Below are positions 40,554-59,847 of a stretch of DNA of 64,000 nt, in pieces. Positions within the stretch are counted from its first letter, which is position 1, and every line of letters begins with the position of its first letter. The translations under genes and the position numbers were made by a program. Origin of the DNA: Flavobacteriales bacterium 34_180_T64 (lineage in GTDB: Bacteria; Bacteroidota; Bacteroidia; Flavobacteriales; Flavobacteriaceae); the NCBI GenBank assembly GCA_002162765.1, contig MAAR01000009.1:124001-188000 (forward strand). Reading direction: 5' to 3'. The notes under the pieces were generated by a model. The model saw only the letters and a program-made list of their open reading frames with translations. It was not told where the DNA came from and did not search any database.

Positions 40554-40620
40554 AATTGAATTTTTTTTATCTTTTATGTAAGTTGAAATTTGCGTTCAAA
40601 CGTTACATTTATTGTATTTA

Positions 40621-41322: not shown

Positions 41323-41324
41323 AA

Positions 41325-41939: not shown

Positions 41940-42831
41940 GTTGAACAAGTTTTTTAATACGATTAAAGTCTTCTTCCGAATGAAAAGGAATTGTTATTTT
42001 TCCTTTCCCATTCTTAGAAACATTAACGCTTATTTTGTGGCCAAAGTATTCTGAAAACTCTCTGACTCCCTTTTTAATATATTTTGGTAACTCCTCTTTT
42101 TTTGAAGGAATCGAAGTTGATTGATCGGTTTGATAATTTCTAACTAGAGCTTCAGTATCTCGAACAGATAATTTATTAGTAATAATTTTTTCATAAATAT
42201 CTAGTTGAATATTTTGATCTTCAATTGTTATGATCGCTCGGCCATGCCCCATAGAAATGAAACCATCTCGTATTCCAGTTTGAATGATGGGATCTAGCTT
42301 CAGTAGCCTTAAATAATTAGCAATTGTAGAACGCTTTTTTCCAACGCGTTCACTCATTTGTTCTTGTGTAAGATTAATTTCGTCTATTAATCGCTGATAA
42401 GACAATGCAATTTCTATAGGATCTAAATCTTGACGTTGGATATTTTCAACCAAGGCCATTTCTAATGATTCTTGGTCGTTTGCAATACGTATGTATGCTG
42501 GAATAGTTTTTAATCCTAATAATTTAGAAGCTCTATAGCGACGTTCACCAGAAACCAATTGAAATTTATTAAATTCCAGTTTTCTCACTGTTATAGGTTG
42601 AATGACGCCTAATTCTTTTATTGAAGATGCCAATTCATGTAACATTTCTTCATTGAAACTTGTCCTTGGCTGAAATGGGTTGATTTCTATTAATTCCAAC
42701 TCTAATTCAACAATGTTACCTATAACTTTATCAGCGTTTTTATCTTGTACAGATTTGATGTCGTTTGAAGGATCTTTTAGAAGCGCAGATAATCCTCTAC
42801 CTAAAGCTTGTTTTTTTGTTGCCTTCGCCAT
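41929..42831 (-). CDS. parB: Chromosome partitioning protein ParB
   Basis: A 300-residue CTP-dependent DNA clamp. Its N-terminal box is INPFQPRTSFNEEMLHELA, followed by GVIQPITVRK and VSGERRYRASKLLG (CTP-binding patches). VENIQRQDLDPIEIA and the helix-turn-helix MSERVGKKRSTIANYLRLL follow. The C-terminal dimer domain is basic. It overlaps parA by one base (TAATG). No parS site was recognised in the window. Confidence 0.96.
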   Translation of the reverse strand: MAKATKKQALGRGLSALLKDPSNDIKSVQDKNADKVIGNIVELELELIEINPFQPRTSFNEEMLHELASSIKELGVIQPITVRKLEFNKFQLVSGERRYRASKLLGLKTIPAYIRIANDQESLEMALVENIQRQDLDPIEIALSYQRLIDEINLTQEQMSERVGKKRSTIANYLRLLKLDPIIQTGIRDGFISMGHGRAIITIEDQNIQLDIYEKIITNKLSVRDTEALVRNYQTDQSTSIPSKKEELPKYIKKGVREFSEYFGHKISVNVSKNGKGKITIPFHSEEDFNRIKKLVQRAK

Positions 42832-43598
42832 TAGATCTCATTTTTTTTGATAATTTCCTTTGCTAAACTTAAATAATTTGAAGCCCCTTTGCTACTTACA
42901 TCATAATTAATAATACTTTCTCCATAACTAGGTGCTTCTCCTAAACGAACGTTACGTTGTATAATTGTTTGAAAAACCATATCACTAAAATGTTTTTGAA
43001 CCTCTTCGACCACCTGATTTGAAAGTCGTAACCTTGAATCAAACATGGTAAGTAACAGACCCTCTATGTCTAAACTGGTATTGTGTATTTTTTGAACACT
43101 TTTTATGGTGTTTAATAATTTGCCTAAACCTTCTAAAGCAAAATATTCGCACTGAATAGGTATAATCACCGAATCTGCCGCTGTAAGCGCATTTAAGGTT
43201 AATAAACCAAGAGAAGGTGCACAGTCAATTAAAATGTAATCATAAGATGCTTTTAAATGTGATACTGCTTGTTTTAGCATGTATTCACGGTCTTCCTTAT
43301 CAACCAATTCAATTTCTATTGCAACCAAATCAATATGTGCAGGTACAATGTCAACATTTGGTGCAGACGTTTTAACAATACATTCTTCTACAGAACTTGT
43401 ATGTTCTAATAACTGATAGGAGCCAATTTCTACTGCGTTGACATCTATGCCTAAACCTGAAGAAGCGTTAGCTTGTGGATCCGCATCAATGAGTAATACT
43501 TTTTTTTCTAAAACGCCTAAAGAAGCAGCTAAGTTAACTGAAGTGGTCGTTTTGCCGACACCTCCCTTTTGATTGGCAATTGCAATGATTTTACCCAT
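42831..43598 (-). CDS. parA: Chromosome partitioning ATPase ParA
   Basis: A 255-residue Walker-type ATPase, also called Soj. KGGVGKTTT (10-18) is the deviant P-loop with signature lysine, DADPQANASSGLG is the A' motif, and ILIDCAPSLGLLTLNAL is Walker B. Length and lack of an N-terminal DNA-binding extension mark a chromosomal ParA. It heads the parA-parB-DUF5683-dapB-lepB-wbqC run on the minus strand. Confidence 0.97.
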   Translation of the reverse strand: MGKIIAIANQKGGVGKTTTSVNLAASLGVLEKKVLLIDADPQANASSGLGIDVNAVEIGSYQLLEHTSSVEECIVKTSAPNVDIVPAHIDLVAIEIELVDKEDREYMLKQAVSHLKASYDYILIDCAPSLGLLTLNALTAADSVIIPIQCEYFALEGLGKLLNTIKSVQKIHNTSLDIEGLLLTMFDSRLRLSNQVVEEVQKHFSDMVFQTIIQRNVRLGEAPSYGESIINYDVSSKGASNYLSLAKEIIKKNEI

Positions 43599-43714
43599 TA
43601 AATGATTTGGTTTTTATAACGGTAAAAATACAATTATTTGTGAGTATAAAAAATGTAACTTGTTAACAATAGATTGGTAAAACTGCAATAATTAAAGGTT
43701 TTTTTTTAAAGCCG

Positions 43715-44599
43715 TTATGACTTGTTTTTCTTGGCTCTAATCAGTTGCTCAAGTTGATCCCACATCTCTTGAGGGATATCTTCTAATAAATTGAACTCTC
43801 CAGCGCCTTTTAACCATTCTCCTCCGTCAATGGTAATCACTTCACCATTTACATAACTTGAGAAATCTGACACTAAATATGCGGCTAAATTTGCTAATTC
43901 TTGATGTTCGCCAACCCGTTTTAATGGCACCTTTTTAGCCATATCAAATTTGTCTTTTAAATTGCCTGGGAGTAATCTATCCCAAGCGCCTTTAGTAGGG
44001 AATGGACCAGGGGCAATTGCGTTGAATCGCATACCATATTTTGCCCATTCTACTGCAAGGCTTCGCGTCATAGCTAAAACGCCAGCTTTTGCAGAAGCAC
44101 TGGGAACAACATAGCCCGAGCCAGTCCAAGCGTATGTGGTTACAATATTTAAAACAGTCGTGTTTTTTTGTTTTGTGTCAATCCAATGTTTACCAAAAAC
44201 TAAAGTGCAATTTTTAGTCCCTTTTAAAACAATATCTATAATTGTATCAAAGGCATTGGACGATAAGCGTTCCGTTGGAGAAATAAAATTACCAGCTGCG
44301 TTGTTAAGTAGAATATCTACAGTCTCAAATTGGTCAATAACTTGTTTATGCATTGCTTCAACTTGATCGTAATGCCTTACATCACATTGCAGAGGTAGAC
44401 ATCTTCCTCCTGTTTCCGCCTCTAGTTCCTTTGCAGTAGTTTTTAGTTTTTCTAAATTTCTTGAAGTTATGACTACTAAAGCACCTAATTCTAAAAAGTA
44501 TTTGGTCATCGCTTTCCCCAGACCACTTCCACCTCCTGTAACGACTATTGTCTTGCCTTTAAGCGCATCATCACGAAGCATTTTTTGCGAATAATTCAT
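43715..44599 (-). CDS. SDR oxidoreductase, 2,4-dienoyl-CoA reductase type
   Basis: A 294-residue NADPH-dependent short-chain dehydrogenase. TGGGSGLG (21-28) is the cofactor loop and LLNNAAGNFISPTERLS the NNAG-type motif. Where classical SDRs have YxxxK, this reads PSASAKAGVLAMTRSLAVEW: the lysine is kept but tyrosine is replaced, as in the DECR branch that reduces 2,4-dienoyl-CoA in unsaturated fatty-acid oxidation. FNAIAPGPFPTKGAWDRL also fits that branch. The gene is divergent from nirK, and the 155 bases between hold the nirK control region. Confidence 0.88.
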   Translation of the reverse strand: MNYSQKMLRDDALKGKTIVVTGGGSGLGKAMTKYFLELGALVVITSRNLEKLKTTAKELEAETGGRCLPLQCDVRHYDQVEAMHKQVIDQFETVDILLNNAAGNFISPTERLSSNAFDTIIDIVLKGTKNCTLVFGKHWIDTKQKNTTVLNIVTTYAWTGSGYVVPSASAKAGVLAMTRSLAVEWAKYGMRFNAIAPGPFPTKGAWDRLLPGNLKDKFDMAKKVPLKRVGEHQELANLAAYLVSDFSSYVNGEVITIDGGEWLKGAGEFNLLEDIPQEMWDQLEQLIRAKKNKS

Positions 44600-44652
44600 T
44601 GTAAATATGTTTTTTTAAATATAAATAAAGTTTTGTGGACTAAATGCTATTT

Positions 44653-44666
44653 ATGACAAAAGTCAT
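44653..44666. promoter_or_regulatory. Candidate Crp/Fnr-family site upstream of nirK
   Basis: ATGAC-AAAA-GTCAT is a perfect 5-4-5 inverted repeat, the spacing used by Fnr, DNR and HcpR-type activators. Its centre lies about 41 bases before the transcription start predicted from the -7 box at 44689-44696, the classic class II activator position. The regulator itself is not in the window. Confidence 0.5.
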
Positions 44667-44688
44667 GTTTTAGGAAAATGTTAAAATT

Positions 44689-44696
44689 TACTTTTG
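44689..44696 (+). promoter_or_regulatory. nirK -7 promoter element
   Basis: TACTTTTG matches TAnnTTTG. No -33 TTTG is present at the right distance, consistent with a promoter that needs an activator. The ATG follows at 44755, giving a leader of about 55 bases. Confidence 0.6.
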
Positions 44697-44711
44697 ACTA
44701 AATAAAATAAA

Positions 44712-44725
44712 AGACATTTTTATCC
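44712..44725. promoter_or_regulatory. Degenerate Rrf2-type operator in the nirK leader
   Basis: AGACATTTTTATCC matches the operator-like sequence before the Rrf2 gene (GGACAAATTTATCC) at 11 of 14 positions. The right arm, extended to TTTATCCTTATTAA, matches the corresponding arm before the Rrf2 gene at 13 of 14. It lies just downstream of the predicted start, a position suited to repression. Confidence 0.4.
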
Positions 44726-44754
44726 TTATTAAATAATCAAACAACTAATACATT

Positions 44755-46215
44755 ATGATCCAAAACAGAAAACAAACAACTATTATTATGAGTTTGTTAA
44801 CAGTACTAGCGTTGTTCCTAACCTCTTGTATTGATAATGAAAAAAAAACTCAGGCAAATGCTGCAGATATTCCTGTAAGTAAAGAAATGACTGCGGAATT
44901 AACTTCACCGCCAAATGTTCCAACTCCAGTTGGGCGTAGAAAGGCTAAAAAGCTCATTGTTAATATGGAAATTCTTGAACAAGAAGGAACCATGACGGAT
45001 GGAACGACTTACAATTACTGGACTTTTGGTGGTTCGGTACCTGGGAGTTTTATTAGAACTAGAGTTGGAGATGAAGTGGAATTCACATTATCTAATCATC
45101 CAGATAATAAATTACCACATAATATAGATTTGCATGCAGTAACTGGTCCTGGAGGAGGAGCAACCTCTTCTTTTGTAGCTCCTGGTCATGAAAAGAAGTT
45201 CAATTTTAAAACTATAAACCCTGGGTTATATGTATATCACTGTGCAACCGCTCCTGTTGGGATGCATATTGCTAATGGTATGTATGGATTGATTCTAGTT
45301 GAACCTGAAGGAGGTTTGCCTAAAGTGGATAAAGAGTATTACATCATGCAAGGAGATTTTTATACTAAAGGTGAAAATGGTGATCCAGGATTGCAACCTT
45401 TTGATATGCAAAAGGCCGTAGATGAGGATGCTGATTATGTTGTCTTTAATGGAAGTGTGGGTGCATTAACTGGTGATAACGCTATTACAGCTAATGTGGG
45501 TGAAACGGTTCGTTTATACATTGGTAATGGTGGACCAAACTTAGTGTCTTCATTTCACGTAATTGGTGAAATATTTGATAAAGTTTATGTTGAAGGAGGC
45601 GACTTAATCAATGAGAATGTTCAAACAACATTAGTTCCTGCAGGTGGAGCCGCTATTGTTGAATTCAGAGTAGATGTACCTGGAACATTTATTTTAGTGG
45701 ATCACTCAATTTTTAGAGCTTTTAATAAAGGAGCTTTAGGTATGTTGAAAGTAGAAGGAGAAGAAAATAAGAAAATTTATTCTGGTATTGTTCAAGAAGG
45801 GATTTATAATCCTGAAGGTGGCGGAATTCAAGTAATGCCAAACGGAAATGACAAAAAGCCAACAGTTGCTGTATCTAAAACTTTAGCCGAAAAAATGGAA
45901 TCTGGTAAACAAGTTTATATGAAAACATGTTTTGCATGTCACCAAGCAGAAGGACAAGGAATACCGAACGCGTTTCCGCCGCTTGCAAAATCCGATTACT
46001 TAAATGCAAATGTAAATCGTGCCATCGAAATTGTACTTAAAGGAAAAACAGGTGAAATTACCGTTAATGGTGAAACGTATAACAGTGTAATGACCAGACA
46101 AGCCATAAGTAATGATGAAATTGCAGATGTAATGACATACATCTATAACTCATGGGGTAATAATAAAACAAACGTTACTAAGAGTCAAGTAGATCAAGTA
46201 AAAAGTGGACATTAA
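44755..46215 (+). CDS. nirK: Copper nitrite reductase with C-terminal cytochrome c domain
   Basis: A 486-residue lipoprotein (LTSC, C25) that reduces nitrite to nitric oxide in the periplasm. Type 1 copper ligands are H122, C163, H171 and M176. Type 2 ligands are H127, H162 and H317. The catalytic pair is D125 and H268, and spacing agrees with characterised NirK proteins. After the two cupredoxin domains (about 65-335), residues 375-465 form a class I cytochrome c with CFACH (392-396) and a likely M446 ligand, which would deliver electrons directly. It is first in a plus-strand run through norF. No Tat signal is seen. Confidence 0.97.
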   Translation: MIQNRKQTTIIMSLLTVLALFLTSCIDNEKKTQANAADIPVSKEMTAELTSPPNVPTPVGRRKAKKLIVNMEILEQEGTMTDGTTYNYWTFGGSVPGSFIRTRVGDEVEFTLSNHPDNKLPHNIDLHAVTGPGGGATSSFVAPGHEKKFNFKTINPGLYVYHCATAPVGMHIANGMYGLILVEPEGGLPKVDKEYYIMQGDFYTKGENGDPGLQPFDMQKAVDEDADYVVFNGSVGALTGDNAITANVGETVRLYIGNGGPNLVSSFHVIGEIFDKVYVEGGDLINENVQTTLVPAGGAAIVEFRVDVPGTFILVDHSIFRAFNKGALGMLKVEGEENKKIYSGIVQEGIYNPEGGGIQVMPNGNDKKPTVAVSKTLAEKMESGKQVYMKTCFACHQAEGQGIPNAFPPLAKSDYLNANVNRAIEIVLKGKTGEITVNGETYNSVMTRQAISNDEIADVMTYIYNSWGNNKTNVTKSQVDQVKSGH

Positions 46216-46226
46216 TTAATAGCACT

Positions 46227-46997
46227 ATGAAGCCTATTTTAAGATTGACAATTTGCATACTATTTGTGTGGACTAACTTGGCAAATTGTCAATCTAAAAT
46301 GGTTCCTATCAAAGGAGGAACTTATATCCCACTATACGGAAGAGATTCTTTAATGGTCACAATTACAGATTTTCAAATGGATGTATATCCAGTGACAAAT
46401 CAAGACTATTTAGAATTTGTAAAAAAGTACCCAAAGTGGAAACGTTCTCAAGTTAAAAAAATATTTGCCGATGCTAATTATTTAAGTACATGGACATCTG
46501 ATATCGAACTAGGTAATCAACAAGAAATGTTAGCGCCAATTACCAATATATCATGGTTTGCGGCAAATGATTATTGTGAATGTCAAGGTAAACGATTACC
46601 TACTGTAGATGAATGGGAGTACGCTGCCATGGCAAATAAGGATCTTCCTGATGCGAGACAATTGGAAACCTACAATGCATATATTTTGGGTTGGTATGAA
46701 AAACCTAGAACATTCAATAATGAGATTGGATCAACCTTTAAAAACTATTGGAATGTTTACGATTTGCATGGTTTAGTTTGGGAATGGACCTCCGATTTTA
46801 ACTCCGTAATGATTTCAGGAGAGTCTCGAAAAGATGTTGATAATGACAGTAATTTATTCTGTGGTAGCGCCGCAATTGGCGCAACCGATTTAATGAATTA
46901 TGCAGCGTTTATGAGATATGCTACAAGAGGAAGCCTCAAAGCAAAATACGCAATGAAGAATTTAGGATTTAGATGCGTTAAAAATATAAATCAATAA
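46227..46997 (+). CDS. nirV: NirV-like exported formylglycine-generating-enzyme-fold protein
   Basis: A 256-residue exported protein with the SUMF1/FGE fold: GGTYIPL, YPVTNQDYLEFV, ITNISWFAANDYCECQGKRLPTVDEWEYAA split around residues 105-134, DLHGLVWEWTSDF and LGFRCV. NirV proteins of this fold accompany nirK in several denitrifiers, with no settled function. Only one cysteine (C212) is in the active-site region where true formylglycine enzymes have two, so sulfatase-type chemistry is unlikely. Eleven bases after nirK and two before sco. A role in NirK maturation is inferred. Confidence 0.85.
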   Translation: MKPILRLTICILFVWTNLANCQSKMVPIKGGTYIPLYGRDSLMVTITDFQMDVYPVTNQDYLEFVKKYPKWKRSQVKKIFADANYLSTWTSDIELGNQQEMLAPITNISWFAANDYCECQGKRLPTVDEWEYAAMANKDLPDARQLETYNAYILGWYEKPRTFNNEIGSTFKNYWNVYDLHGLVWEWTSDFNSVMISGESRKDVDNDSNLFCGSAAIGATDLMNYAAFMRYATRGSLKAKYAMKNLGFRCVKNINQ

Positions 46998-46999
46998 TC

Positions 47000-47719
47000 A
47001 TGAAACAATTAATTACGATTGTATGTTCACTCTTAGTCATTTTTTCATTTTCATCTTGCAAAGATGATACGTCAGATATTACTGGTGATGAAGCAGCAGT
47101 GTATCAATGTCCAATGAAATGTGAAGGAGATAAGACTTATGAAAAAGAAGGGAGTTGCCCTGTTTGTAATATGGATATTTTAGTCATATCAAATCAAAAA
47201 AAACAGATCTCAAATAATCATGAAATTTCCGATGAATCCATTTTCAATTTAACCACTAATTGGAATACTGAAGAAGGTAAAGTTATTCAATTGGAAGACT
47301 TAAAAGGTGAAACTTTGGTCATGGTTATGATTTATACAACTTGTAAAGCTGCGTGTCCAAGACTGGTGGCAGATATGAGAAATATTGAAGCTCAGATTCC
47401 AAAAGCAAACCTTGAAGACTTAAATTTTGTTCTAGTTAGTATAGATCCTGAAACAGATACTCCAAAACGATTAAAAGCATTTGCAAAAGAAAATTTTATG
47501 GATGGGGAGCAATGGACATTTTTACAAGGAACGGTAAGTGGTGTCAGAGAGTTTGCCAATGTGTTGGCTGTAAAGTACAAGCAAATTTCACCCTTAGATT
47601 TTTCACATTCAAATATTATAAGTGTATTCAATTCTAAAGGGGAATTAATGCATCAACAAGAAGGTTTAGGCGTGAATAATAAAGAAACCGTAAAAACCAT
47701 TCTAGAACTAACAAATTAA
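47000..47719 (+). CDS. SCO-family copper chaperone with N-terminal metal-binding domain
   Basis: A 239-residue lipoprotein (SSC, C20). Residues 36-60 read QCPMKCEGDKTYEKEGSCPVCNMDI split as a small heavy-metal-binding domain with CPMKC and CPVCNMD. A thioredoxin-like SCO domain follows, with the copper site C115-x3-C119 (TTCKAACP) and H203 (DFSHSN). SCO proteins insert copper into cuproenzymes. Since NorBC has no copper, the likely client is NirK or an oxidase elsewhere. The metal domain joined to SCO could hold copper before transfer. Confidence 0.9.
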   Translation: MKQLITIVCSLLVIFSFSSCKDDTSDITGDEAAVYQCPMKCEGDKTYEKEGSCPVCNMDILVISNQKKQISNNHEISDESIFNLTTNWNTEEGKVIQLEDLKGETLVMVMIYTTCKAACPRLVADMRNIEAQIPKANLEDLNFVLVSIDPETDTPKRLKAFAKENFMDGEQWTFLQGTVSGVREFANVLAVKYKQISPLDFSHSNIISVFNSKGELMHQQEGLGVNNKETVKTILELTN

Positions 47720-47747
47720 AAACGAATATTAATCAAAACTATATTAT

Positions 47748-48182
47748 ATGTTATCAAAAAAACAAGCACGAGCCTTTTTTCTAGGGGGAACTGTAGTTAC
47801 TTTTTTAATATTTATTGGTTTAACAGTTTACTCTTTTGGTAAACCTCAAGACCAGTCAAATTATGAAGCTATTACAGAATCCGTAGTAAGAGGAAAAGAA
47901 TTATGGGAAACTAACAATTGTATGGGATGTCATACACTATTGGGGGAAGGCGCTTATTATGCTCCCGAATTAACTAAAGTGATAGATCGTAGAGGTAAAG
48001 GTTACATCAAAGCTGTCTTAATGACGCCTGTAGATTGGGCACCAAACGGTAGAAAAATGGTGGCCTATGGATTTTCACAAGAAGAAGCTGAAGATTTAAT
48101 AGCCTTTTTTGACTGGATTGATGATGTTGATTTAAACGGATTTGATACGGTTGTATCACCACTAGCAAAAGATAAAAACTAA
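47748..48182 (+). CDS. norC: Nitric oxide reductase subunit C (cytochrome c)
   Basis: A 144-residue membrane-anchored monoheme cytochrome c. One N-terminal helix (FFLGGTVVTFLIFIGLTVY) is followed by NNCMGCHTLLGEGAYYAPEL with C58, C61 and H62, and M104 in KMVAYGF as the sixth ligand. This is the NorC pattern, passing electrons to NorB. It is 10 bases before norB. Confidence 0.95.
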   Translation: MLSKKQARAFFLGGTVVTFLIFIGLTVYSFGKPQDQSNYEAITESVVRGKELWETNNCMGCHTLLGEGAYYAPELTKVIDRRGKGYIKAVLMTPVDWAPNGRKMVAYGFSQEEAEDLIAFFDWIDDVDLNGFDTVVSPLAKDKN

Positions 48183-48192
48183 ACAAAAAATT

Positions 48193-49533
48193 ATGAAATA
48201 TAAATCACAAAAAGTAGCATATTGGTTTTTTGCCCTTTCAATGTTGTTGTTTGGACTTCAAATTATATATGGTTTTATAATGGGATTTGCGCATGCTGGA
48301 TTTGATGTTCTTCATGATGTAATTCCTTTTAATACAGCCAGAGCTGTACATACTAACCTATTAGTAGTGTGGCTGTTGTCAGGTTTTATGGGAGCTGCGT
48401 ATTACATTATACCAGAAGAAGCACAACGCGAATTGGTAAGTGTGAAACTGGCATATGTACAATTGATTAGTTTAGCGGTAGTGGGTGTTATCTCTATTAT
48501 AGGGTTTCATTTTAATTACTGGGAAGGACGTAAATTTTTAGAGATTCCGCGACCTTTAGATTATTTGGTAGTCGTGAATGTCCTTTTGTTTTTAGGACTT
48601 ATTTTAACGACTCTATTTAAAGGAAAGCGTAGAACAACAACGGCTTTAGTACTTTCAATGGGATTGCTTTTTGCAGCTTTATTGTATTTGCCTGGAATGC
48701 TTCCATTTGATAGTCAAGTAATGGATTCCTTTTTCAGATGGTGGGTTGTACACCTATGGGTTGAAGGTGTTTGGGAATTGATTATGGGAGGTATTCTATC
48801 ATTCTTATTAATCAAACTAACTGGTGTTGATAGAGAAGTTATCGAAAAATGGTTGTATGTAATTGTTGGATTGACATTCTTATCAGGAGTTTTAGGAACA
48901 GGTCATCACTATTATTATATTGGTGTGAATAAAATTTGGTTAATTGTTGGTGGTATTTTCTCTGCTCTAGAGCCTTTAGCGTTCTTAGCAATGGCATTAT
49001 TTGCAGTAAATATGTATAGAAAAGGAGAGAAGAAGCATCCTAATAAATTAGCATTATTTTGGACGCTTGGTGCTGCTATTGTGTCATTTATAGGTGCTGG
49101 ACTTCTAGGATTTGCACATACTTTACCACAAACCAATCTTTATACACACGGAACATTAGTGACAGCAATGCACGGCCATCTCGCATTTTGGGGCGCATAT
49201 GCAATGATAGTGCTTGCCATAATTAGTTATAGTTTACCAAATATGACTGGTAGAAAATTATACGAAAGTACACGAGGTAGAATGGCGTTCTGGATGTCTA
49301 ATATAGGAATGATAGGAATGACCGTAGCCTTTGGAGTTGCTGGTGTGGTTCAAGTTTATTTAGAGCGTAGAATGAAAATGGAATTTATGGAAGTTCAAAA
49401 AGAAGTAGAAGTTCATTTCGTTGTTTTAATTATTTGTGCTACTTTATTCTTAACAGGAATTACATTGTACATGATTGACTTTTATAAACATGGAAAACCA
49501 ACAGATGAAGCATTAGAAGCAACATCGAATTAA
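48193..49533 (+). CDS. norB: Nitric oxide reductase subunit B
   Basis: A 446-residue, 12-helix heme-copper-superfamily enzyme that reduces two NO to N2O. Heme and FeB ligands are all present: H53 (low-spin heme), H187 with E191 and E195 in HLWVEGVWE, H238/H239 in GTGHHYYYIG, E260, and H327/H329 in MHGHLAFWG. Each key position is offset by a constant 20 from the Pseudomonas enzyme. There is no quinol-oxidase N-terminal extension, so with NorC this is a cytochrome-type cNor. Confidence 0.97.
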   Translation: MKYKSQKVAYWFFALSMLLFGLQIIYGFIMGFAHAGFDVLHDVIPFNTARAVHTNLLVVWLLSGFMGAAYYIIPEEAQRELVSVKLAYVQLISLAVVGVISIIGFHFNYWEGRKFLEIPRPLDYLVVVNVLLFLGLILTTLFKGKRRTTTALVLSMGLLFAALLYLPGMLPFDSQVMDSFFRWWVVHLWVEGVWELIMGGILSFLLIKLTGVDREVIEKWLYVIVGLTFLSGVLGTGHHYYYIGVNKIWLIVGGIFSALEPLAFLAMALFAVNMYRKGEKKHPNKLALFWTLGAAIVSFIGAGLLGFAHTLPQTNLYTHGTLVTAMHGHLAFWGAYAMIVLAIISYSLPNMTGRKLYESTRGRMAFWMSNIGMIGMTVAFGVAGVVQVYLERRMKMEFMEVQKEVEVHFVVLIICATLFLTGITLYMIDFYKHGKPTDEALEATSN

Positions 49534-49547
49534 TTAAATTTTAAATA

Positions 49548-50819
49548 ATGAAAAAGCATTTAGTTTGTTTCACCATTACTGCGATAATGGCCTTGAATAC
49601 ATATGCTCAACAATTTGATTTGTCAGCAGAAATAAGACCACGTTATGAAAACAAACATGGACATGGAACTCTTATCGCACCAGACACCGATGGGACCAAT
49701 TTTGTGTCTCAGCGTACACGTTTAAATTTCGGATTTAAAAATCCAAAAATGAGGCTAAAAGTTACATTTCAAAATGTGAGAGTTTGGGGAGATGTAAGTA
49801 CATTATCTAGTAATGATAATGCCACTGCTTTGCATGAAGCATGGGCAGAAGCTATTTTAAACACTAAAATAACTTTAAAATTTGGGCGTCAGGAAATTTC
49901 TTATGATGATCAAAGGATATTCGGTAGTGTTGGCTGGGCGCAACAAGCGCGAAGTCATGATGCCTTTTTGTTTAAATATGCTCCGAACGCAAATCATAAA
50001 ATTGATGTAGGATTTGCAATGAATGCCGATTCACAATCTGGTGTTGATAATTTATATAGCAATGCCGCTGGATATAAGGCGTTTCAATATGCTTGGTATC
50101 ATGGTGATTTCAAGAAATTCGGAGTGAGCTTTTTGATGTTAAACACAGGTATTGAATATCTAGAGAATGAAGGTACATCCGATGAAGATCAGACTATAGA
50201 TTTTATGCAAACAGTGGGTCCAAGATTGACTTATAAATCTGGTAAATTCAATGCGAATGCATCGGCCTATTTTCAAATGGGTAAATCTTTGAATATGGAT
50301 GTAAGTGCATCTAATTTTTCAGGGAATGTTGGCTATAAGATAAATGACAACTTTAATTTTGGTGTCGGAATTGAATATCTTTCAGGAAAGGATATGGATG
50401 ATGCAGATTCAGATATAAAATCCTTTGCTCCACTATTTGGAACCAATCATAAGTTTAATGGATTGATGGATTATTTCTATGTTGGAAATCATGCAAACAA
50501 TGTTGGTTTAAATGATATTAATGCTACAATAGCTTATAAAAAGAATAAGTTTTCGGCAAAAATTGTTCCTCACTTTTTTACAGCTGTAGGTAATGTATTT
50601 GATGCTTCAGAAAAAATGGATAATAGTCTGGGAACTGAAATCGATTTAACAATAGGTTATAAATTAGCGAAGGATATTTCTATAAATGCTGGATATTCTC
50701 AAATGTTTGCTACCGATACAATGGAAGTGATTAAAGGAGGAGACAAAGATGAAAATAATTCTTGGGCTTGGGTAATGATTACATTTAAACCAAACTTATT
50801 TTCTCATAAAATAGAGTAA
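49548..50819 (+). CDS. Outer-membrane porin, alginate-export-family type
   Basis: A 423-residue protein with a signal peptide ending NTYAQQ and alternating beta-strands to the end (WAWVMITFKPNLF), so an outer-membrane barrel. LSAEIRPRYENKHGHG, FVSQRTRLNFGF, HEAWAEAIL and LKFGRQEISYDDQRIFGS match the alginate_exp-like barrel family. In a nitrite/NO operon, it is more likely to admit nitrite or another small anion than alginate; this is inference. It sits between norB and norQ, followed by a hairpin. Confidence 0.85.
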   Translation: MKKHLVCFTITAIMALNTYAQQFDLSAEIRPRYENKHGHGTLIAPDTDGTNFVSQRTRLNFGFKNPKMRLKVTFQNVRVWGDVSTLSSNDNATALHEAWAEAILNTKITLKFGRQEISYDDQRIFGSVGWAQQARSHDAFLFKYAPNANHKIDVGFAMNADSQSGVDNLYSNAAGYKAFQYAWYHGDFKKFGVSFLMLNTGIEYLENEGTSDEDQTIDFMQTVGPRLTYKSGKFNANASAYFQMGKSLNMDVSASNFSGNVGYKINDNFNFGVGIEYLSGKDMDDADSDIKSFAPLFGTNHKFNGLMDYFYVGNHANNVGLNDINATIAYKKNKFSAKIVPHFFTAVGNVFDASEKMDNSLGTEIDLTIGYKLAKDISINAGYSQMFATDTMEVIKGGDKDENNSWAWVMITFKPNLFSHKIE

Positions 50820-50835
50820 TATAAGTATTAGAAAT

Positions 50836-50885
50836 AAGAGACCAGAGTTGAATTTTTAAAAGAGATTAACACTGGTCTTTTATTG
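50836..50885 (+). terminator. Imperfect hairpin between porin and norQ
   Basis: AAGAGACCAGAGTT (50836-50849) pairs with AACACTGGTCTTTT (50868-50881) with two mismatches and an 18-base loop, followed by TATT. It may end or attenuate the upstream transcript, lowering norQDEF relative to nirK-norB. No clear promoter lies in the remaining 26 bases before norQ. Confidence 0.5.
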
Positions 50886-50911
50886 TAAATTGACCTAATT
50901 AATATACTAAA

Positions 50912-51685
50912 ATGAGCACACCATATTATCATGCTATAGGAAAAGAGATTGCTGTTTTTGACCATGCCTATAAATGTAAAATCCCGTTTCTGTTAAAGGG
51001 TCCTACAGGTACTGGGAAGTCGCGATTTATTGAACACATGGCTCATGAATTGAATACAAGACTAATTACAATTTCTTGTCACGAGGAAACGTCATCTACC
51101 GATTTAATTGGAAGATTTATAATTAAAGGGGCCGAAACAGTTTGGTTAGATGGTCCTTTAACGACTGCTGTTAAGGAAGGACATGTTTTATATTTAGATG
51201 AAATTGCAGAGGCAAGACCAGACGTAATTGTCGCAATTCATTCCTTAACGGATCACCGTCGGGAATTATTTATTGATAAATTGGGAGAAACAATTAAAGC
51301 ACATGAAAACTTCATGCTTGTTGCTTCGTTCAATCCGGGATATCAAAGAGGGTTTAAAGAGTTGAAACCGTCTACAAGACAACGTTTTGTTGCAATATCA
51401 TTTGCGTATCCCGAGCCCAAAATAGAAACTGAAATCTTAGTTTCAGAAACGGGAATTGAAAAAAATGACGCTAAAAGATTAGTGAATATCGCTACAAAAA
51501 TTAGAAATTTAACAGAGTTAGGTTTAACTGAAACGGTTTCAACGCGGTTGTTGGTGGATGCAGCACAGTTAATACATGTTGGTTTACCAAAACGATTGGC
51601 AGTTCACGTTGCAGTTATAGAGCCTTTAACAGATGATTTAGAAGTGATAGCTGCACTTAAAGACTTGAGTGACTTAATGATATAA
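50912..51685 (+). CDS. norQ: NorQ/CbbQ-family MoxR-type AAA+ ATPase
   Basis: A 257-residue AAA+ ATPase. Walker A is GPTGTGKS (30-37), Walker B is VLYLDEIAEA (92-101), and sensor 1 lies in MLVASFNPGYQRG. NorQ works with NorD to activate NorBC, probably by inserting the FeB iron. It lies four bases before norD. Confidence 0.95.
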   Translation: MSTPYYHAIGKEIAVFDHAYKCKIPFLLKGPTGTGKSRFIEHMAHELNTRLITISCHEETSSTDLIGRFIIKGAETVWLDGPLTTAVKEGHVLYLDEIAEARPDVIVAIHSLTDHRRELFIDKLGETIKAHENFMLVASFNPGYQRGFKELKPSTRQRFVAISFAYPEPKIETEILVSETGIEKNDAKRLVNIATKIRNLTELGLTETVSTRLLVDAAQLIHVGLPKRLAVHVAVIEPLTDDLEVIAALKDLSDLMI

Positions 51686-51689
51686 TAGT

Positions 51690-53468
51690 ATGTTTGAGTT
51701 CGAACCTGATGAATATATATTTACAAAATTCGCATTCTTTTTTAAGAAACGTAAACGAAAAAAAGAAGCAGAACTCGAGTATACAGTAAATTTAAGTGAG
51801 GTGAAATCTAGATTAACCATTTTCGCCAGAGCAATTACGGGAGAATCTATTGAGATATTTGAGGCTAAACGAGAAGGCGGCTATAGAAACAATAATTTCT
51901 TTTTACCATCGAAGTTTCAAGATTTTCCAACGGTTGATGAAAATGTGTCTTTCTACCTATTTAGAATTTTGTATCTATCGATACAAAAGAATTTAGGTTT
52001 GAACTGGAAAGATAATCAAGAACATGATTTAAAGGAGTCTCAAATTAAAGCCGAAGAAACATCAAATGAAGTGCTCATTCAGTTGTTTTCTCAATTTCCA
52101 ATTACTAAAATTTACTATGAAAAATTTCTTTCATTTTATGAAAGCAAAATTGACGCAAAATCTTCTGTCGATTATTCATTTATTTACGGAAAATGGATGC
52201 AAGACACTCTTAATGAGGATTCAGATAAGCAGCTAGAGAATTTTACAGATAAGGTTAAGAAAGCTAATGAAGAACAACCAAAAACCATTATAAAATCAAA
52301 AGCCGTAGAAGAAATTATTTCTGTGCAAATTGATCAAAAGCAAATGGACGATGCCGTGTTACAGCATCAATTTGAAAAGGTGGAAACCGCAGAAGAATTT
52401 GGTGGAAACTTCAGAGATATGGATGGTGATGATGACTTAGATGATCATTCCAATGCTTTAGATGAGGTCGACATGAAATTTACGGTTCGCGTTGATGATA
52501 CTGCACATTCTGTTTATCAGGCTGATTTCATTGAGAATACGACAATTTCTGAAAGCTCAGAAAGTGTTAATGCCAATGCCTATTTTGAAAGTTATGATGA
52601 ATGGGATTTTTCGACACGATCTTATAAAGAGGATTTTTGTAAAGTCTACCCAAAAACACAATTGGAATCTGATGCCTCCTATTACAAAAAAACACTGAGT
52701 GAGAATCGATCAACATTAGTTGGACTTCGAAAAATGCTCGCAACAGTAAACAATAAATATCAACAACAACGCAGACAAAGACAAGGAGAGGAGTTTGATA
52801 TCGATGCCATAACAGATTTGTTCATTGATATAAAATCTGGTCATACACCATCAGAAAAAATATATCTTTCTAAACGGAAAAAAGTAAAGGACTTGAGCAT
52901 ATTATTGCTTTTGGATATCAGCTTATCAAGTGACGGTTATGCCGCTGGTAATAGAGTGATTGATGTAGAGAAACAAGTGTCCATTCTATTCGGTGAAATT
53001 TTGGACGAGTTTAATATTGATTTTTCTATTGATTGCTTTTATTCTAAAACAAGAAATCATTCTACGTATTTAACGCTAAAAGGATTTGATGAAGACTGGA
53101 ATATTGCTAAGCATAGAGTAGGAGCAATTGAGCCTAATGGTTATACGAGAATTGGAGCTGCGTTAAGACATTCAGGAGCACTGTTAGATAAGCGAGATAC
53201 TAAAAATAAATGGGTGATTTTAATTTCTGATGGTAAGCCAAATGATTATGATAAATATGAAGGAAAATATGGTGTGAATGACGTAAAACAGGCATTAAGA
53301 GAACTAAATGAAAGACAAATAAATTCTTATGCACTAGCAATTGAAGCAAATGCAAAATATTATTTACCACAAATGTTTGGGCAAAATCACTATCAAATTC
53401 TAACGACACCAGTAGAGCTATTGCAATCGTTAGTGAAATTGTATGAAAAAATAAAACACCAATCTTAA
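51690..53468 (+). CDS. norD: NorD, VWA-domain activation protein
   Basis: A 592-residue protein with a soluble alpha-rich N-terminal half, an acidic middle (DMDGDDDLDDHSNALDE, near 250), and a C-terminal von Willebrand A domain. The MIDAS site DISLS is at 409-413 with the later YTRIGAALRHSG (Thr ligand) and ILISDGKPNDY. With NorQ it matures the NO reductase. Length and order match NorD of proteobacteria. Confidence 0.94.
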   Translation: MFEFEPDEYIFTKFAFFFKKRKRKKEAELEYTVNLSEVKSRLTIFARAITGESIEIFEAKREGGYRNNNFFLPSKFQDFPTVDENVSFYLFRILYLSIQKNLGLNWKDNQEHDLKESQIKAEETSNEVLIQLFSQFPITKIYYEKFLSFYESKIDAKSSVDYSFIYGKWMQDTLNEDSDKQLENFTDKVKKANEEQPKTIIKSKAVEEIISVQIDQKQMDDAVLQHQFEKVETAEEFGGNFRDMDGDDDLDDHSNALDEVDMKFTVRVDDTAHSVYQADFIENTTISESSESVNANAYFESYDEWDFSTRSYKEDFCKVYPKTQLESDASYYKKTLSENRSTLVGLRKMLATVNNKYQQQRRQRQGEEFDIDAITDLFIDIKSGHTPSEKIYLSKRKKVKDLSILLLLDISLSSDGYAAGNRVIDVEKQVSILFGEILDEFNIDFSIDCFYSKTRNHSTYLTLKGFDEDWNIAKHRVGAIEPNGYTRIGAALRHSGALLDKRDTKNKWVILISDGKPNDYDKYEGKYGVNDVKQALRELNERQINSYALAIEANAKYYLPQMFGQNHYQILTTPVELLQSLVKLYEKIKHQS

Positions 53469-53492
53469 TAACGCAGAACTACTCACAAACAA

Positions 53493-54074
53493 TTGAATAA
53501 AATCACAACACATTATAGAAACATATACTATCCACCTGGAGGCATTTTAATTTGGCTTATCATTTTATTAGAACTGTTTACATTTGGTATCGCTCTAATT
53601 GTAATGGTTGTATATGGTAAGCAGGAACCTGAATTATTTCATGATTCTAGATTAATGTTGAATGCCACTTATGGAATGGTAAATACTATTTTTTTACTGA
53701 CAAGTGGCTATTTCATGGCTATTTCTGTTTCAGAATTGAAAAATGAAAACAAGGAAAAATTTAAAAAATATTTAGTTTTAACTATGCTTTTTGGTATCCT
53801 GTTTTTAGGATTAAAAAGTATTGAATATTATGAAAAGATAGAGGCTGGTGTATTAATTGGTTTTAATACGTTTTTCACCTTCTATTGGATGCTGACTCTA
53901 TTTCATGTAATTCATGTAATAGTTGGATTAGTAATACTTTCATCTGTCTATCTTGGGATAAGAAAAAAAGATTCAGACACTAAACTTGAAGATGTAGAAG
54001 CAAGTGCAGCGTTTTGGCATATGTGTGATTTAATTTGGATTTTATTATTTCCTATTCTTTATTTATTTTTTTAG
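53493..54074 (+). CDS. norE: NorE, cytochrome c oxidase subunit III-like
   Basis: A 193-residue membrane protein with five helices of the COX3 fold: YYPPGGILIWLIILLELFTFG, the SGYFMAISVSELKN segment, HVIHVIVGLVIL and AAFWHMCDLIWILLFPILY. NorE is needed for full NO reductase activity in some denitrifiers. The start codon is TTG at 53493; the first in-frame ATG would remove helix 1, so TTG is preferred. Confidence 0.9.
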   Translation: MNKITTHYRNIYYPPGGILIWLIILLELFTFGIALIVMVVYGKQEPELFHDSRLMLNATYGMVNTIFLLTSGYFMAISVSELKNENKEKFKKYLVLTMLFGILFLGLKSIEYYEKIEAGVLIGFNTFFTFYWMLTLFHVIHVIVGLVILSSVYLGIRKKDSDTKLEDVEASAAFWHMCDLIWILLFPILYLFF

Positions 54075-54075
54075 T

Positions 54076-54312
54076 ATGAATAAAACGGCAACTTTAACAT
54101 GGGTTATCTTAATTGGTCTTACAGTAGCTTCTGCTGTATTTTCAATAGTGCAAAACTCGTATATAGTGCTTATTATTTTGGTCTTAGCTGTATTGAAATT
54201 TATTGGTATAGCGTTTCAATTTATGGAACTGAAAAAAGCACATGTTTTTTGGAAAATTATTGTATGTATCTTTTTATTCATTTTTCTGTCAACCATATTA
54301 ATTGTAAATTAA
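54076..54312 (+). CDS. norF: NorF-like small membrane protein (COX4 superfamily)
   Basis: A 78-residue protein with three helices: TLTWVILIGLTVASAVFSI, YIVLIILVLAVLKFIGIAFQFMELK and IVCIFLFIFLSTILIV. The KFIGIAFQFMELKKAH core is the subunit IV/NorF signature. It is one base after norE and is the last plus-strand gene of the cluster. Confidence 0.87.
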   Translation: MNKTATLTWVILIGLTVASAVFSIVQNSYIVLIILVLAVLKFIGIAFQFMELKKAHVFWKIIVCIFLFIFLSTILIVN

Positions 54313-54353
54313 ACTTAGCTCAGTCTTTATTTTTATTCTTTAGAAATCAAGTA

Positions 54354-55547
54354 TCATGGTGCCTTTGAAGGTGTTTTGTAAATATTAAATACAATGCTTA
54401 GGATCCCTATTGGCAAGAGCATGCTGGAAAGAAATAGCAAGAGGTAATAGTTTGCTATTAATCCACTTCCTGAATGAAATTTATACCCTTGAATGATGAG
54501 CAATAGTTCAGTTATAACGAAGCCTAAAATAAAAATATAGACACCTAAGTATAATCCTTTAGTATATGTTACTAATCGACTTTGAATAATAAAAGAAAGC
54601 AAAAATCCAGAAATAGCGCCCAACAGGGTTAAATGAATAAATCCAATAACCACATTTCGATGCTGGTAAATGCTTTGTGAGATTTCAGGAATAAGAGAGA
54701 GGACCTGCAAGCCCATTTTTAATCCAAAACAAACTATGGCAAAGGTGTAAACATGAACACTAAGTTTAGTATTGTGTTTTAAAACCAGATTAAGTTTTGA
54801 TACTATAAGCTTAAAAAAAAGAACAAAACTGATCAATTGCAGAATAACCCCAAATGCATTTATCCAAAATAGGGGAGAATGAGGTGCATACCAATGGATA
54901 GGTAGTGCTAAGGAAAGAAAGATAGAAAGTATTAGAGTCTTATAGAATAATCGAAATAGCTTGGAGTCTTGTATTTGCAAAAGATGGAAAAATACTGCGA
55001 TAACTGCTATTAAAAACCAGCCATTAAATTGAAAGTGTAAAAAGAACTGTATAGCAATCTGATAAAAGGCAGAAGCTGAACCTAGCAAAGCTACTGCAGG
55101 GCCTAAGCACCAGACTCCAAGTGTCGATAAAAGCATAAATACGAGTGCAGTTCTCAATAAATGACGGGTAACAATGGAGCTAGTATTATGATGTTTCCAA
55201 ACGAGATAGGCAAAATAGTAGCTACAAAAAATGTGTAAGGTAGAAAAGGAAATAGAAACAGCAGCATAACCCTGAATAGGAAAACTGATCATCATACCAA
55301 TCACGGCAAATTCAGTAAGCCAAAACAAACGGTTATAGATTTGTTTTTTGTCCTTGATAAAATAATGTACAATTAGAGTGAATAGCATTAAATACACCCA
55401 TCCCAACATAGCAACGTGGGAATGTCCATGTGTTAGAAATTTATAATTTATGGGAATAGGGTCAATTGACGTATACCGTAATGCTAAACCCATTAAGGCA
55501 GCTATTAGAAAATTGATAAGACAAACTAGTACCAGTTTCTTTGGCAT
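54354..55547 (-). CDS. Heme-copper oxidase subunit I-like membrane protein
   Basis: A 397-residue, roughly 12-helix membrane protein. FLTHGHSHVAMLGW (H40, H42, H44) resembles the low-spin heme helix of heme-copper oxidases, and FFLHFQFNGWFL and GFIHLTLLGAISG recall later histidine helices. The CuB/FeB ligand set is not complete, so I do not call it an oxidase. It could be an NO-linked heme or copper membrane protein, NnrS being one comparison. ATG 55547 is preferred over an upstream TTG. It is convergent to norF with 41 bases between and lies beyond a terminator from ric. Confidence 0.6.
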   Translation of the reverse strand: MPKKLVLVCLINFLIAALMGLALRYTSIDPIPINYKFLTHGHSHVAMLGWVYLMLFTLIVHYFIKDKKQIYNRLFWLTEFAVIGMMISFPIQGYAAVSISFSTLHIFCSYYFAYLVWKHHNTSSIVTRHLLRTALVFMLLSTLGVWCLGPAVALLGSASAFYQIAIQFFLHFQFNGWFLIAVIAVFFHLLQIQDSKLFRLFYKTLILSIFLSLALPIHWYAPHSPLFWINAFGVILQLISFVLFFKLIVSKLNLVLKHNTKLSVHVYTFAIVCFGLKMGLQVLSLIPEISQSIYQHRNVVIGFIHLTLLGAISGFLLSFIIQSRLVTYTKGLYLGVYIFILGFVITELLLIIQGYKFHSGSGLIANYYLLLFLSSMLLPIGILSIVFNIYKTPSKAP

Positions 55548-55602
55548 GGTGTTTTTAATGATAAATATAAGAGGTTTCACCAAATGATTGTACTAGAATT
55601 GA

Positions 55603-55638
55603 AAATTCCAGAAGGTTTAAGGAAACCTTCCGGAATTT
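55603..55638 (-). terminator. Terminator after ric
   Basis: AAATTCC-A-GAAGGTTT and AAACCTTC-C-GGAATTT form a 15-pair stem with one A/C mismatch and a four-base loop, about 50 bases beyond the ric stop codon. Confidence 0.75.
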
Positions 55639-55687
55639 GTTGAATCAAAAACCAGATGTTGCTATCAATCAAAAATTTGGATTGCTA

Positions 55688-56419
55688 TTAACCAAATTGC
55701 AGTTCTAGTTTTATAGATTCAGGGAATAAAATATTATTTTCTATATGAATATGTGTATGAAGATCTTTTTCAAACTCCTCTAACATAGCAAAAGTTACTT
55801 TGTAAGTGTTACAGGCATCAGCAGGAGGCGTATAGTTGTTTGTTAATTTCGCTATTTCTCTGAAGCGTACACCTTCATTATCATGTTCGTCTTTCATCAT
55901 GGCAATTGGGTTTTCAACGGTTCCAAAATTGGGCGCCTTAACTGAGCCATCTCCTAAAGTAGCATTTACCATATTTTTAATAAACGGGAATAGGATTAAT
56001 TCCTCTTTTTTCATGTGTGATGCAAGGTCGGACGAAGAACCAGTAAATAATTCGTTTATTTTATGTAATTCTGGATGTCTTTCACCATGAACACGACAGA
56101 GTTTATTTAAGAACTGTAGCAATACCGGGATTTTTTCTTCAACATAACGGTGATGCTTTTTTTCAATATAGTCGATTAGTAAATCTAAAGGCCAGGATTT
56201 ATAATCTATAGTCGGATTACTTGTATCATTTAAGACTCTATTAAGTCGATCCAATAGATCATTCGGGTTAATTCCGTTCTTATCACAAACCTCTTCAACG
56301 GTTCTATGACCTCTGCAGCAAAAATCGATACCATATTTATTAAAAACAGCAGCAGTTCTATAATCTTCTGCAACATATTCTCCTATTTGTTTCTGTGTGT
56401 TTTTTTGTAATGTTTCCAT
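55688..56419 (-). CDS. ric: Iron-sulfur cluster repair di-iron protein (Ric/YtfE/ScdA)
   Basis: A 243-residue cytosolic protein that mends Fe-S clusters and removes NO after nitrosative stress. The N-terminal DUF542 domain has KYGIDFCCRGHRTVEEVC (about 29-46) with the paired cysteines. The hemerythrin domain then supplies His and Glu ligands in YIEKKHHRYVEEKIP, HMKKEELILFPF, MKDEHDNEG and HTHIHIENNILFPE. Length matches YtfE/ScdA. A perfect palindrome lies 15 bases before its ATG, and the Rrf2 regulator gene is immediately upstream. Confidence 0.95.
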   Translation of the reverse strand: METLQKNTQKQIGEYVAEDYRTAAVFNKYGIDFCCRGHRTVEEVCDKNGINPNDLLDRLNRVLNDTSNPTIDYKSWPLDLLIDYIEKKHHRYVEEKIPVLLQFLNKLCRVHGERHPELHKINELFTGSSSDLASHMKKEELILFPFIKNMVNATLGDGSVKAPNFGTVENPIAMMKDEHDNEGVRFREIAKLTNNYTPPADACNTYKVTFAMLEEFEKDLHTHIHIENNILFPESIKLELQFG

Positions 56420-56433
56420 ATTGATTTTATTTC

Positions 56434-56447
56434 GGATAAATTTATCC
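56434..56447. promoter_or_regulatory. Candidate Rrf2 operator before ric
   Basis: GGATAAATTTATCC is a perfect 14-base palindrome 15 bases upstream of the ric ATG. Read on the minus strand it contains TAAATTTA, a 7-of-8 match to the -7 element, so binding would block a ric promoter. Confidence 0.6.
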
Positions 56448-56466
56448 TATATATAATTAAATTTTT

Positions 56467-56901
56467 TTACATTTTTAAAAATGAAGCGCCAGACTTAATG
56501 TTTTGCGCCAATTCTTCCAAAGTAGTATTTTCTAACATATCGCGTAATTCATCTTTTACTATTTTGAATTTATGATGAACAGGACAAGGATGAATTTCAT
56601 CACAAGTATGTAGTCCTAAACCACAGTTACTGTAAATCTTGTCACCATCAATTGCATTTACGATTTGAGACAGTTTTACAGTGGCAATTTCATTTTTATT
56701 TATTTCAAAACCACCATGTGCACCTTTAACAGAGTTGATGACACCATTTTTTACAAGTGCTTGTAATATTTTTGCTGTGAATGCTTCTGGTGAAGCAATT
56801 TCTTTAGCTATCGCTTTAGGACTAACTCTCTTACCTTCAGCAGAGTTAATAGCAATAAAAATAGAAGCTTTAATGCCATATTCACAGGCTTTAGAAAACA
56901 T
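56467..56901 (-). CDS. Rrf2-family Fe-S transcriptional regulator, NsrR-like
   Basis: A 144-residue winged-helix regulator. SPKAIAKEIASPEAFTAKILQALVKNGV is the recognition region, split around residues 27-54, and SVKGAHGGFEI is the wing. Three cysteines, C93, C100 and C106 (SNCGLGLHTCDEIHPC), are placed as the cluster ligands of IscR and NsrR. Its place beside ric and nor favours NO sensing through an Fe-S cluster. A palindrome overlapping its own promoter implies autorepression. Confidence 0.9.
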   Translation of the reverse strand: MFSKACEYGIKASIFIAINSAEGKRVSPKAIAKEIASPEAFTAKILQALVKNGVINSVKGAHGGFEINKNEIATVKLSQIVNAIDGDKIYSNCGLGLHTCDEIHPCPVHHKFKIVKDELRDMLENTTLEELAQNIKSGASFLKM

Positions 56902-56922
56902 ATTTTGAAATATTTAGTTATG

Positions 56923-56954
56923 CAAATATATAATTAATATTTAATAAGGACAAA
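56923..56954 (-). promoter_or_regulatory. Promoter of the Rrf2 gene
   Basis: On the minus strand, TTTG (56954-56951), a 20-base spacer and TATATTTG (56930-56923) form a full Bacteroidota -33/-7 promoter. The ATG follows about 22 bases later. Confidence 0.75.
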
Positions 56955-56962
56955 TTTATCCT
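56947..56962. promoter_or_regulatory. Candidate Rrf2 autoregulatory operator
   Basis: AGGACAAATTTATCCT is palindromic at all but one pair, and symmetry continues outward so that 12 of 14 pairs match over 28 bases (56941-56968). The -33 TTTG of the Rrf2 promoter lies inside it. Confidence 0.65.
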
Positions 56963-57004
56963 AATTAAATGTACATTAAAAATTTAGAGAAGGATACCCT
57001 GTTT

Positions 57005-59125: not shown

Positions 59126-59133
59126 CGTTGACC

Positions 59134-59745: not shown

Positions 59746-59847
59746 GTGTTCATATTTATTGTTTTTCAAAGGTCACATGTTGTTCGCTATTAATCATTCC
59801 CTTGGGTGATAAAGCTTTTAACATGCTCGTTTCATAATTCAAATGTG

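Follow-up and report, generated by a model that had tools for sequence, protein, structure and literature searches.

A nirK-nor gene unit of a Flavobacteriaceae genome, predicted to carry the nitrite-to-N2O steps of a complete denitrification pathway

Bacteroidota are important consumers of nitrous oxide (N2O), although, to our knowledge, how they switch denitrification on has been little described. Genomes combining nirK and nosZ are overrepresented in Bacteroidetes, according to the accessible part of PMC4250227, and Flavobacterium enshiense R6S-5-6 is described, in the available text of its account, as encoding NirK, NirV, NorBC, NorE, NorQ, NorD, and NosL/D/F/Y/Z in one genome (PMC9867689). 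Copper nitrite reductases (NirK) with a C-terminal cytochrome c have characterized members only in Pseudoalteromonas haloplanktis and Ralstonia pickettii, as far as the available text of PMC13324648 goes. Positions 44755-54312 of the 64,000-nucleotide stretch presented above (hereafter, the window), from Flavobacteriales bacterium 34_180_T64, hold ten genes in the order nirK-nirV-sco-norC-norB-porin-norQ-norD-norE-norF. Judging from its sequence, this unit is very probably a respiratory operon for the reduction of nitrite to N2O, forming the middle part of a complete denitrification pathway, with the nap genes on contig C18, the unit on C6, and the nos genes on C11.

The gene types of the unit are shared with the F. 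enshiense account, the available text of which does not mention sco, the promoter, or the hairpin discussed below. The window unit is, thus, a further example of a known denitrification gene set, which in itself is ordinary. What is new here is an Fnr-type box whose start precedes a TAnnTTTG element by exactly 35 nucleotides (nt) at nirK, hemN-nos, and cbb3, together with a conserved hairpin on the norQ side.

The gene order and coordinates claimed in the initial annotation, as well as its reading of a nitrite-to-N2O unit with a NirK-cytochrome c fusion and a cNor, were confirmed by open reading frame (ORF) analysis and by Pfam, NCBIfam, and structure matches. All ten ORFs are open on the plus strand and are as follows (Pfam assignments are matches above the gathering score):

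44755-46215, plus strand: nirK, three-domain Cu nitrite reductase with a C-terminal cytochrome c; lipobox-like N terminus by eye
46227-46997, plus strand: nirV, FGE-sulfatase-fold protein (Pfam FGE-sulfatase)
47000-47719, plus strand: sco, SCO1/SenC protein with an N-terminal HMBD (Pfam SCO1-SenC, HMBD)
47748-48182, plus strand: norC, monohaem cytochrome c subunit of cNor, adjoining norB (Pfam Cytochrom_C)
48193-49533, plus strand: norB, cNor catalytic subunit (Pfam COX1)
49548-50819, plus strand: outer-membrane porin-like protein (Pfam Alginate_exp)
50912-51685, plus strand: norQ, AAA+ protein with a CbbQ/NirQ/NorQ C-terminal domain (Pfam AAA_5, CbbQ_C)
51690-53468, plus strand: norD, VWA-domain partner of NorQ (Pfam VWA_CoxE)
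53493-54074, plus strand: norE, COX3-like membrane protein with a TTG start (Pfam COX3)
54076-54312, plus strand: norF, small COX4_pro-like membrane protein (Pfam COX4_pro)

From nirK to norF, the intergenic gaps measure 11, 2, 28, 10, 14, 92, 4, 24, and 1 nt; the spacing of mostly 1-30 bases described earlier therefore holds, with the 92-nt porin-norQ gap, the longest, as the exception. Nitrite entry had also been attributed to the unit: a porin of the Alginate_exp family is indeed encoded, whereas a possible role in nitrite passage is a matter of association only.

The source genome (3.16 Mb in 19 contigs, 90.84% complete) supplies the remaining steps. Genes for NosZ and nitrate reductase are missing from the ORFs read at 40000-60000, as had been noticed for the window, and N2O had consequently been proposed as the end product. 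This N2O-only reading was rejected after the whole-genome search. A clade II NosZ, encoded at C11:144779-146584, scores 946 bits (cut-off 625), with NosD and NosL over their cut-offs and an adjoining ABC pair. On C18, NapA reaches 945 bits with NF010055 (cut-off 904), in a region that also encodes a NapB-domain cytochrome (domain over the cut-off), a DsrP-like membrane subunit, and a ferredoxin-like subunit; weighing against this assignment, NapA stays below the cut-off of a second model, TIGR01706 (907 vs. 930.55). NrfA was not found in the source genome, and its COX1 matches at E 0.001 number three, namely the window NorB, the cbb3 CcoNO, and an aa3-like oxidase. The predicted reductases for nitrate, nitrite, nitric oxide (NO), and N2O are, thus, all encoded in one genome, NapA being above one of two cut-offs, and the organism, known here from its genes alone, probably carries out complete denitrification, from nitrate to N2. 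The predicted end product is N2 rather than N2O, because NosZ and NapA are encoded in the same genome.

Two side observations concern these regions. In the Nap cluster (L043:1172-7186), the membrane subunit resembles DsrP (over the cut-off) and the ferredoxin subunit DsrO (just under), and not the NapC type of quinol oxidation, while a 605-aa protein beside the nos genes (L041:3918-5735) has zero Pfam or NCBIfam matches.

Downstream of norF, the unit is flanked by the following genes:

54354-56901, minus strand: weakly COX1-like membrane protein (54354-55583), ric/ytfE (55688-56419), and Rrf2 regulator (56467-56901)

The ric product is a RIC iron-sulphur repair protein. The weakly COX1-like protein has an HGHSH motif, and ric and often Rrf2 accompany its gene in many of the named loci introduced below. 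The presence of ric and of the Rrf2 regulator, and the location of the nos and nap genes away from the unit, would suit a role in NO detoxification, or a partial denitrification stopping at N2O. Such a role is nevertheless very unlikely, as NosZ, NosD, NosL, and NapA are encoded in the same genome and the hemN-nos promoter has the same geometry as that of nirK.

In 199 family genomes, with the source genome counted in, NirK is over the curated cut-off in 37 and NosZ in 87, and cNorB occurs at 77% identity or more in 27. NirK and cNor are found together in 17 genomes, 15 of which also have NosZ over the cut-off, and nirK and norB lie at most 10 kb apart in 10 of these 17. A second sample consists of 80 named nirK loci, with start codons picked by script, some of them cut by contig ends, and two pairs being duplicates (L064/L136 and L061/L104); its gene-order tally registers only genes with a query match at E 1e-4 and 40% coverage. 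The order nirK-nirV-sco is found in 79 of these 80 loci, the exception being a 3.2-kb contig, with an additional gene inside the block in L139 and a split nirV frame in L164. A porin often comes next after sco (30 sco-porin pairs), and cNorB, present in 23/80 loci, may precede, follow, or surround the nirK block. The order is modular, with nirK-nirV-sco as a fixed block and nor in varying positions. The exact ten-gene order was rejected as a conserved unit: it occurs in only one of the 26 other cNor genomes and in 0/80 named loci. That one genome (G124, locus L044) has the ten genes in an order identical to that of the window, with NorB at 96% and NirK at 89% identity, but its porin-norQ gap measures 304 nt, versus 92 nt.

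The proteins encoded beside nirK in the fixed block also have conserved residues. In Sco, CxxxC and a distal His are conserved in 41/41 aligned sequences (the rows past the length filter, the window's own Sco among them), and NirV keeps Cys117, Cys212, and Cys250 in 79/79. Because of these conserved Cys/His residues and the constant nirK-nirV-sco linkage, copper delivery to NirK by Sco, perhaps with NirV, is suggested.

NirK itself scores 364.4 bits with the NCBIfam model TIGR02376 (cut-off 296.3), and has a Cytochrom_C domain at residues 382-465, with the haem motif CFACH at 392. Its best solved match is 2zoo (E 5.9e-189), followed by 3ziy and others (about 1e-176), near full length and including the haem domain; we take 2zoo to be the P. 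haloplanktis enzyme and the 3ziy group to be that of R. pickettii. Their domain order is identical to that of the window NirK, which differs by its lipoprotein-like N terminus (by eye) and, here, by its constant linkage to nirV and sco. Residues H122, D125, H127, H162, C163, H171, M176, H268, and H317, presumably the type 1 and type 2 copper ligands and the catalytic Asp and His, are invariant in 29/29 aligned fused NirKs (L009, the sole unfused one of 30 fetched, was omitted); with HxxxE, HH, and HxH kept in NorB, the earlier statement that the ligands of both enzymes align is correct. The protein is a Cu nitrite reductase of the C-terminal cytochrome c class, with a predicted activity of nitrite reduction to NO.

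The fusion had also been thought to remove the need for separate electron donors, which does not stand: with the fused haem, electrons have a shorter way to the type 1 copper, but the haem itself requires a reductant. In the available part of PMC13324648, cytochrome c549 is an effective donor to the P. haloplanktis enzyme, and membrane-bound donors are possible. As a special feature of this locus, the NirK-cytochrome fusion was rejected, being the family norm: the haem domain is present on 29/30 fetched family NirKs, and a CxxCH follows the NirK domain in 79/80 named ones (the exception is L174). The closest named NirK among the matches listed, from which the source genome and very near ones are possibly omitted, is that of Flagellimonas onchidii (88% identity). 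According to the accessible part of PMC10999283, Bacteroidota NirKs, many of them from complete denitrifiers, belong to a diverse group of which AniA is the representative.

NorB (446 aa) aligns over its length with 3o0r_B (382 bits), which we take to be the P. aeruginosa NorB, and with 4xyd_A (361 bits), and it is in the alignment with 3o0r_B that its HxxxE, HH, and HxH motifs are seen. Upstream, norC carries CMGCH and stops 10 nt before norB. Without an N-terminal quinol-Nor extension and paired with NorC, NorB is assigned to the cNor type; distant family NorB matches are frames of 739-789 aa. The partners NorQ (CbbQ_C) and NorD (VWA_CoxE) are present, and the neighbours of norB in the window are norC, norQ, norD, norE, and norF; unlike in the 3o0r/4xyd systems, however, these are preceded in the window by nirK-nirV-sco, and a porin gene separates norB from norQ. 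Separately, a second, divergent NorC/NorB-like pair was seen at L046:13265-15029 and in L050, L055, L059, L062, L066, L109, and L118. Its NorB-like protein, of about 446 aa and with about 20-23% identity to the window NorB where measured, keeps the HH pair, while HxH is changed to HxM in 8/8 copies, so that one haem ligand seems changed; for the L046 copy, NorB 4xyd is the top PDB match (3e-12). No such gene is among the three COX1 matches of the source genome.

Upstream of nirK, two elements form the predicted promoter:

44653-44666, plus strand: Fnr-type palindrome ATGACaaaaGTCAT, centred at -41.5 from the predicted transcription start at 44701
44689-44696, plus strand: TACTTTTG, flavobacterial -7 element (TAnnTTTG), beginning 35 nt past the first base of TGAC, the box core

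A centre at -41.5 is the class II position of Crp/Fnr activators. In the available part of PMC9723704, Flavobacterium psychrophilum has TAnnTTTG as its -7 element, spanning -12 to -5, and the same position here puts the box centre at -41.5. The nirK promoter has, thus, a predicted class II Crp/Fnr geometry, with the start deduced from the -7 element.

In the source genome, six perfect pairs of box and element at this spacing were found. Four lie upstream of, respectively, nirK, hemN (the first gene of the nos region), a gene for an E1-E2 (P-type) ATPase, and a 61-aa ORF followed by a cbb3 gene; a fifth precedes a hypothetical gene with 193 codons or more, and the sixth, near a contig end, could not be placed. 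There are also 17 one-mismatch pairs, three of them within opposite-strand ORFs; as a two-mismatch scan gave 112 sites vs. 78 in the control, only perfect and one-mismatch sites were interpreted. In the named loci, in which the promoter, hairpin, and gap counts include related species, the pair precedes nirK in 31/80 with at most one box mismatch (exactly in 6), whereas the remaining offsets between 28 and 42 give 0/80 each under the same tolerance. Two counts weigh against a general rule for nirK: the reverse-complement control also matches in 2/80 loci, and 49/80 upstream regions are without the pair even at one box mismatch, so that other controls must exist.

A scan of 100 family genomes for the exact pair found 332 matches, spread over 82 of them, compared with 6 matches for the reversed pattern and 8 matches in 8 genomes for a spacer lengthened by two bases. 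These 332 pairs have the appearance of a family-wide regulon, the underlying genes having been read in the source genome only. The palindrome by itself is not enriched: ATGACN4GTCAT has three sites in the source genome vs. four in the control, and TGACN4GTCA has one match in the window vs. 0.61 expected. Before nirK, exact TGACN4GTCA occurs in 6/30 regions (shuffled mean 0.04) and exact TGACN4RTCA in 17/80 (shuffled mean 0.22). The palindrome is telling through its position before nirK and its pairing with TAnnTTTG, and not through its frequency.

The source genome encodes three HTH_Crp_2 proteins. The gene of one of them (L182, Fnr-like) is divergent from the ATPase gene bearing a perfect site, and its product has an N-terminal CxxC, the longest frame having Cys at positions 20, 23, 45, 69, 75, and 122. 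An oxygen-sensing Fnr is the likeliest regulator of nirK, and this protein is a candidate for it. It matches FNR chains such as 5e44, yet its best match is 2gau, a Crp/Fnr family member without a stated function, and its third Cys is off the spacing of E. coli Fnr. There is a smaller yet real chance that nirK is instead controlled by a Crp/Fnr relative of another kind, sensing NO, nitrite, or something else (DNR, HcpR, or MalR-like); speaking for this are the three HTH_Crp_2 proteins of the genome and TTGACnnnnGTCAA, given as the HcpR site of two cyanobacteria in the accessible part of PMC1274295. The available text of PMC8510549 also bears against an oxygen-sensing Fnr, as it places the Crp/Fnr homologue of a Flavobacteriales metagenome-assembled genome near MalR, assigning it to a MalR-like carbon sensor, and as denitrification control by Crp/Fnr is not evidenced there for Ignavibacteria and other organisms of the same bioreactor. 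The cbb3 and hemN genes among the perfect sites, typical of oxygen control, argue for Fnr, as does the CxxC. Among the papers listed by a literature search that mostly did not cover subscription papers, no report was found of Bacteroidota Fnr regulons with this promoter feature.

The only long gap of the unit holds a second candidate control element:

50833-50884, plus strand: terminator-like hairpin in the porin-norQ gap, its 3' arm being U-rich

Its energy is -22.1 kcal/mol (z -4.0, with 0/200 shuffles as good). A similar hairpin, differing in sequence, occurs in 28/35 norB-norQ gaps (shuffled mean 1.6), or 27/33 after the duplicate loci are merged, and in 3/5 porin-norQ gaps (shuffled mean 0); L059, which overlaps with L070, and L071 were excluded from the hairpin and gap tallies. 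There is almost none at the other junctions inside the unit, which are mostly too short for one. The hairpin is probably a partial terminator, lowering norQD relative to the catalytic genes. Several results count against this: the hairpin is missing from 7/35 norB-norQ, 2/5 porin-norQ, and 6/6 sco-norQ gaps, and the detector is positive in 165/480 (34%) co-directional gaps of 60-330 nt, norQ junctions included (and in 41/70 convergent and 5/96 divergent gaps). Several of the Flavobacterium hairpins are almost identical.

The unit had been described as one, and a single likely promoter agrees with this, while the conserved hairpin before norQ qualifies it. TAnnTTTG is absent from the 92-nt gap, and norQDEF must therefore be reached by read-through. 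The lack of such an element to start a second transcript would also fit one uninterrupted transcript, on which the hairpin is an RNA-stabilizing or processing element; this has a substantial chance of being right, if somewhat below even. For termination speaks that, with the same detector, a hairpin with a T-rich tail is commoner at norB-norQ than at convergent gene ends. In Bradyrhizobium, the effect of an nnrR mutation declines along norB, norQ, and norD (available part of PMC6710368), and a gradient along nor operons is therefore not new in itself. The same literature search found no report of the nirK-nirV-sco link or of a norCB/norQ terminator.

Taken as a sequence of events, oxygen limitation would lead an Fnr-type activator to bind at -41.5 and to bring RNA polymerase to the nirK promoter with its TAnnTTTG element. 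NirK would reduce nitrite to NO; a c-type donor, periplasmic or membrane-bound, would feed it electrons through the fused haem domain, and its copper would probably come from Sco, perhaps with NirV. NorCB would then convert NO into N2O. NorQ and NorD mature NorB, and NorE and NorF are accessory; due to the hairpin before norQ, only part of the transcripts would probably reach these maturation genes. Finally, NosZ would reduce N2O to N2. A more specific joint proposal is made tentatively, with somewhat less than even confidence: NirV and the HMBD-Sco would act as a pair devoted to loading NirK with copper, flavobacterial denitrification would be under an Fnr-type class II promoter with fixed geometry, common to nir-nor, hemN-nos, and cbb3, and a conserved terminator after norB or the porin, on the norQ side, would set the ratio of catalytic subunit to NorQD chaperone.

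For the family, the pairing of box and -7 element offers a promoter rule readable from sequence, with exact matches in most of the sampled genomes, and the conserved break between the nor catalytic and maturation genes would constitute a second regulatory feature of the unit. For the organism, the analysis corrects a claim that would mark it as an N2O source.

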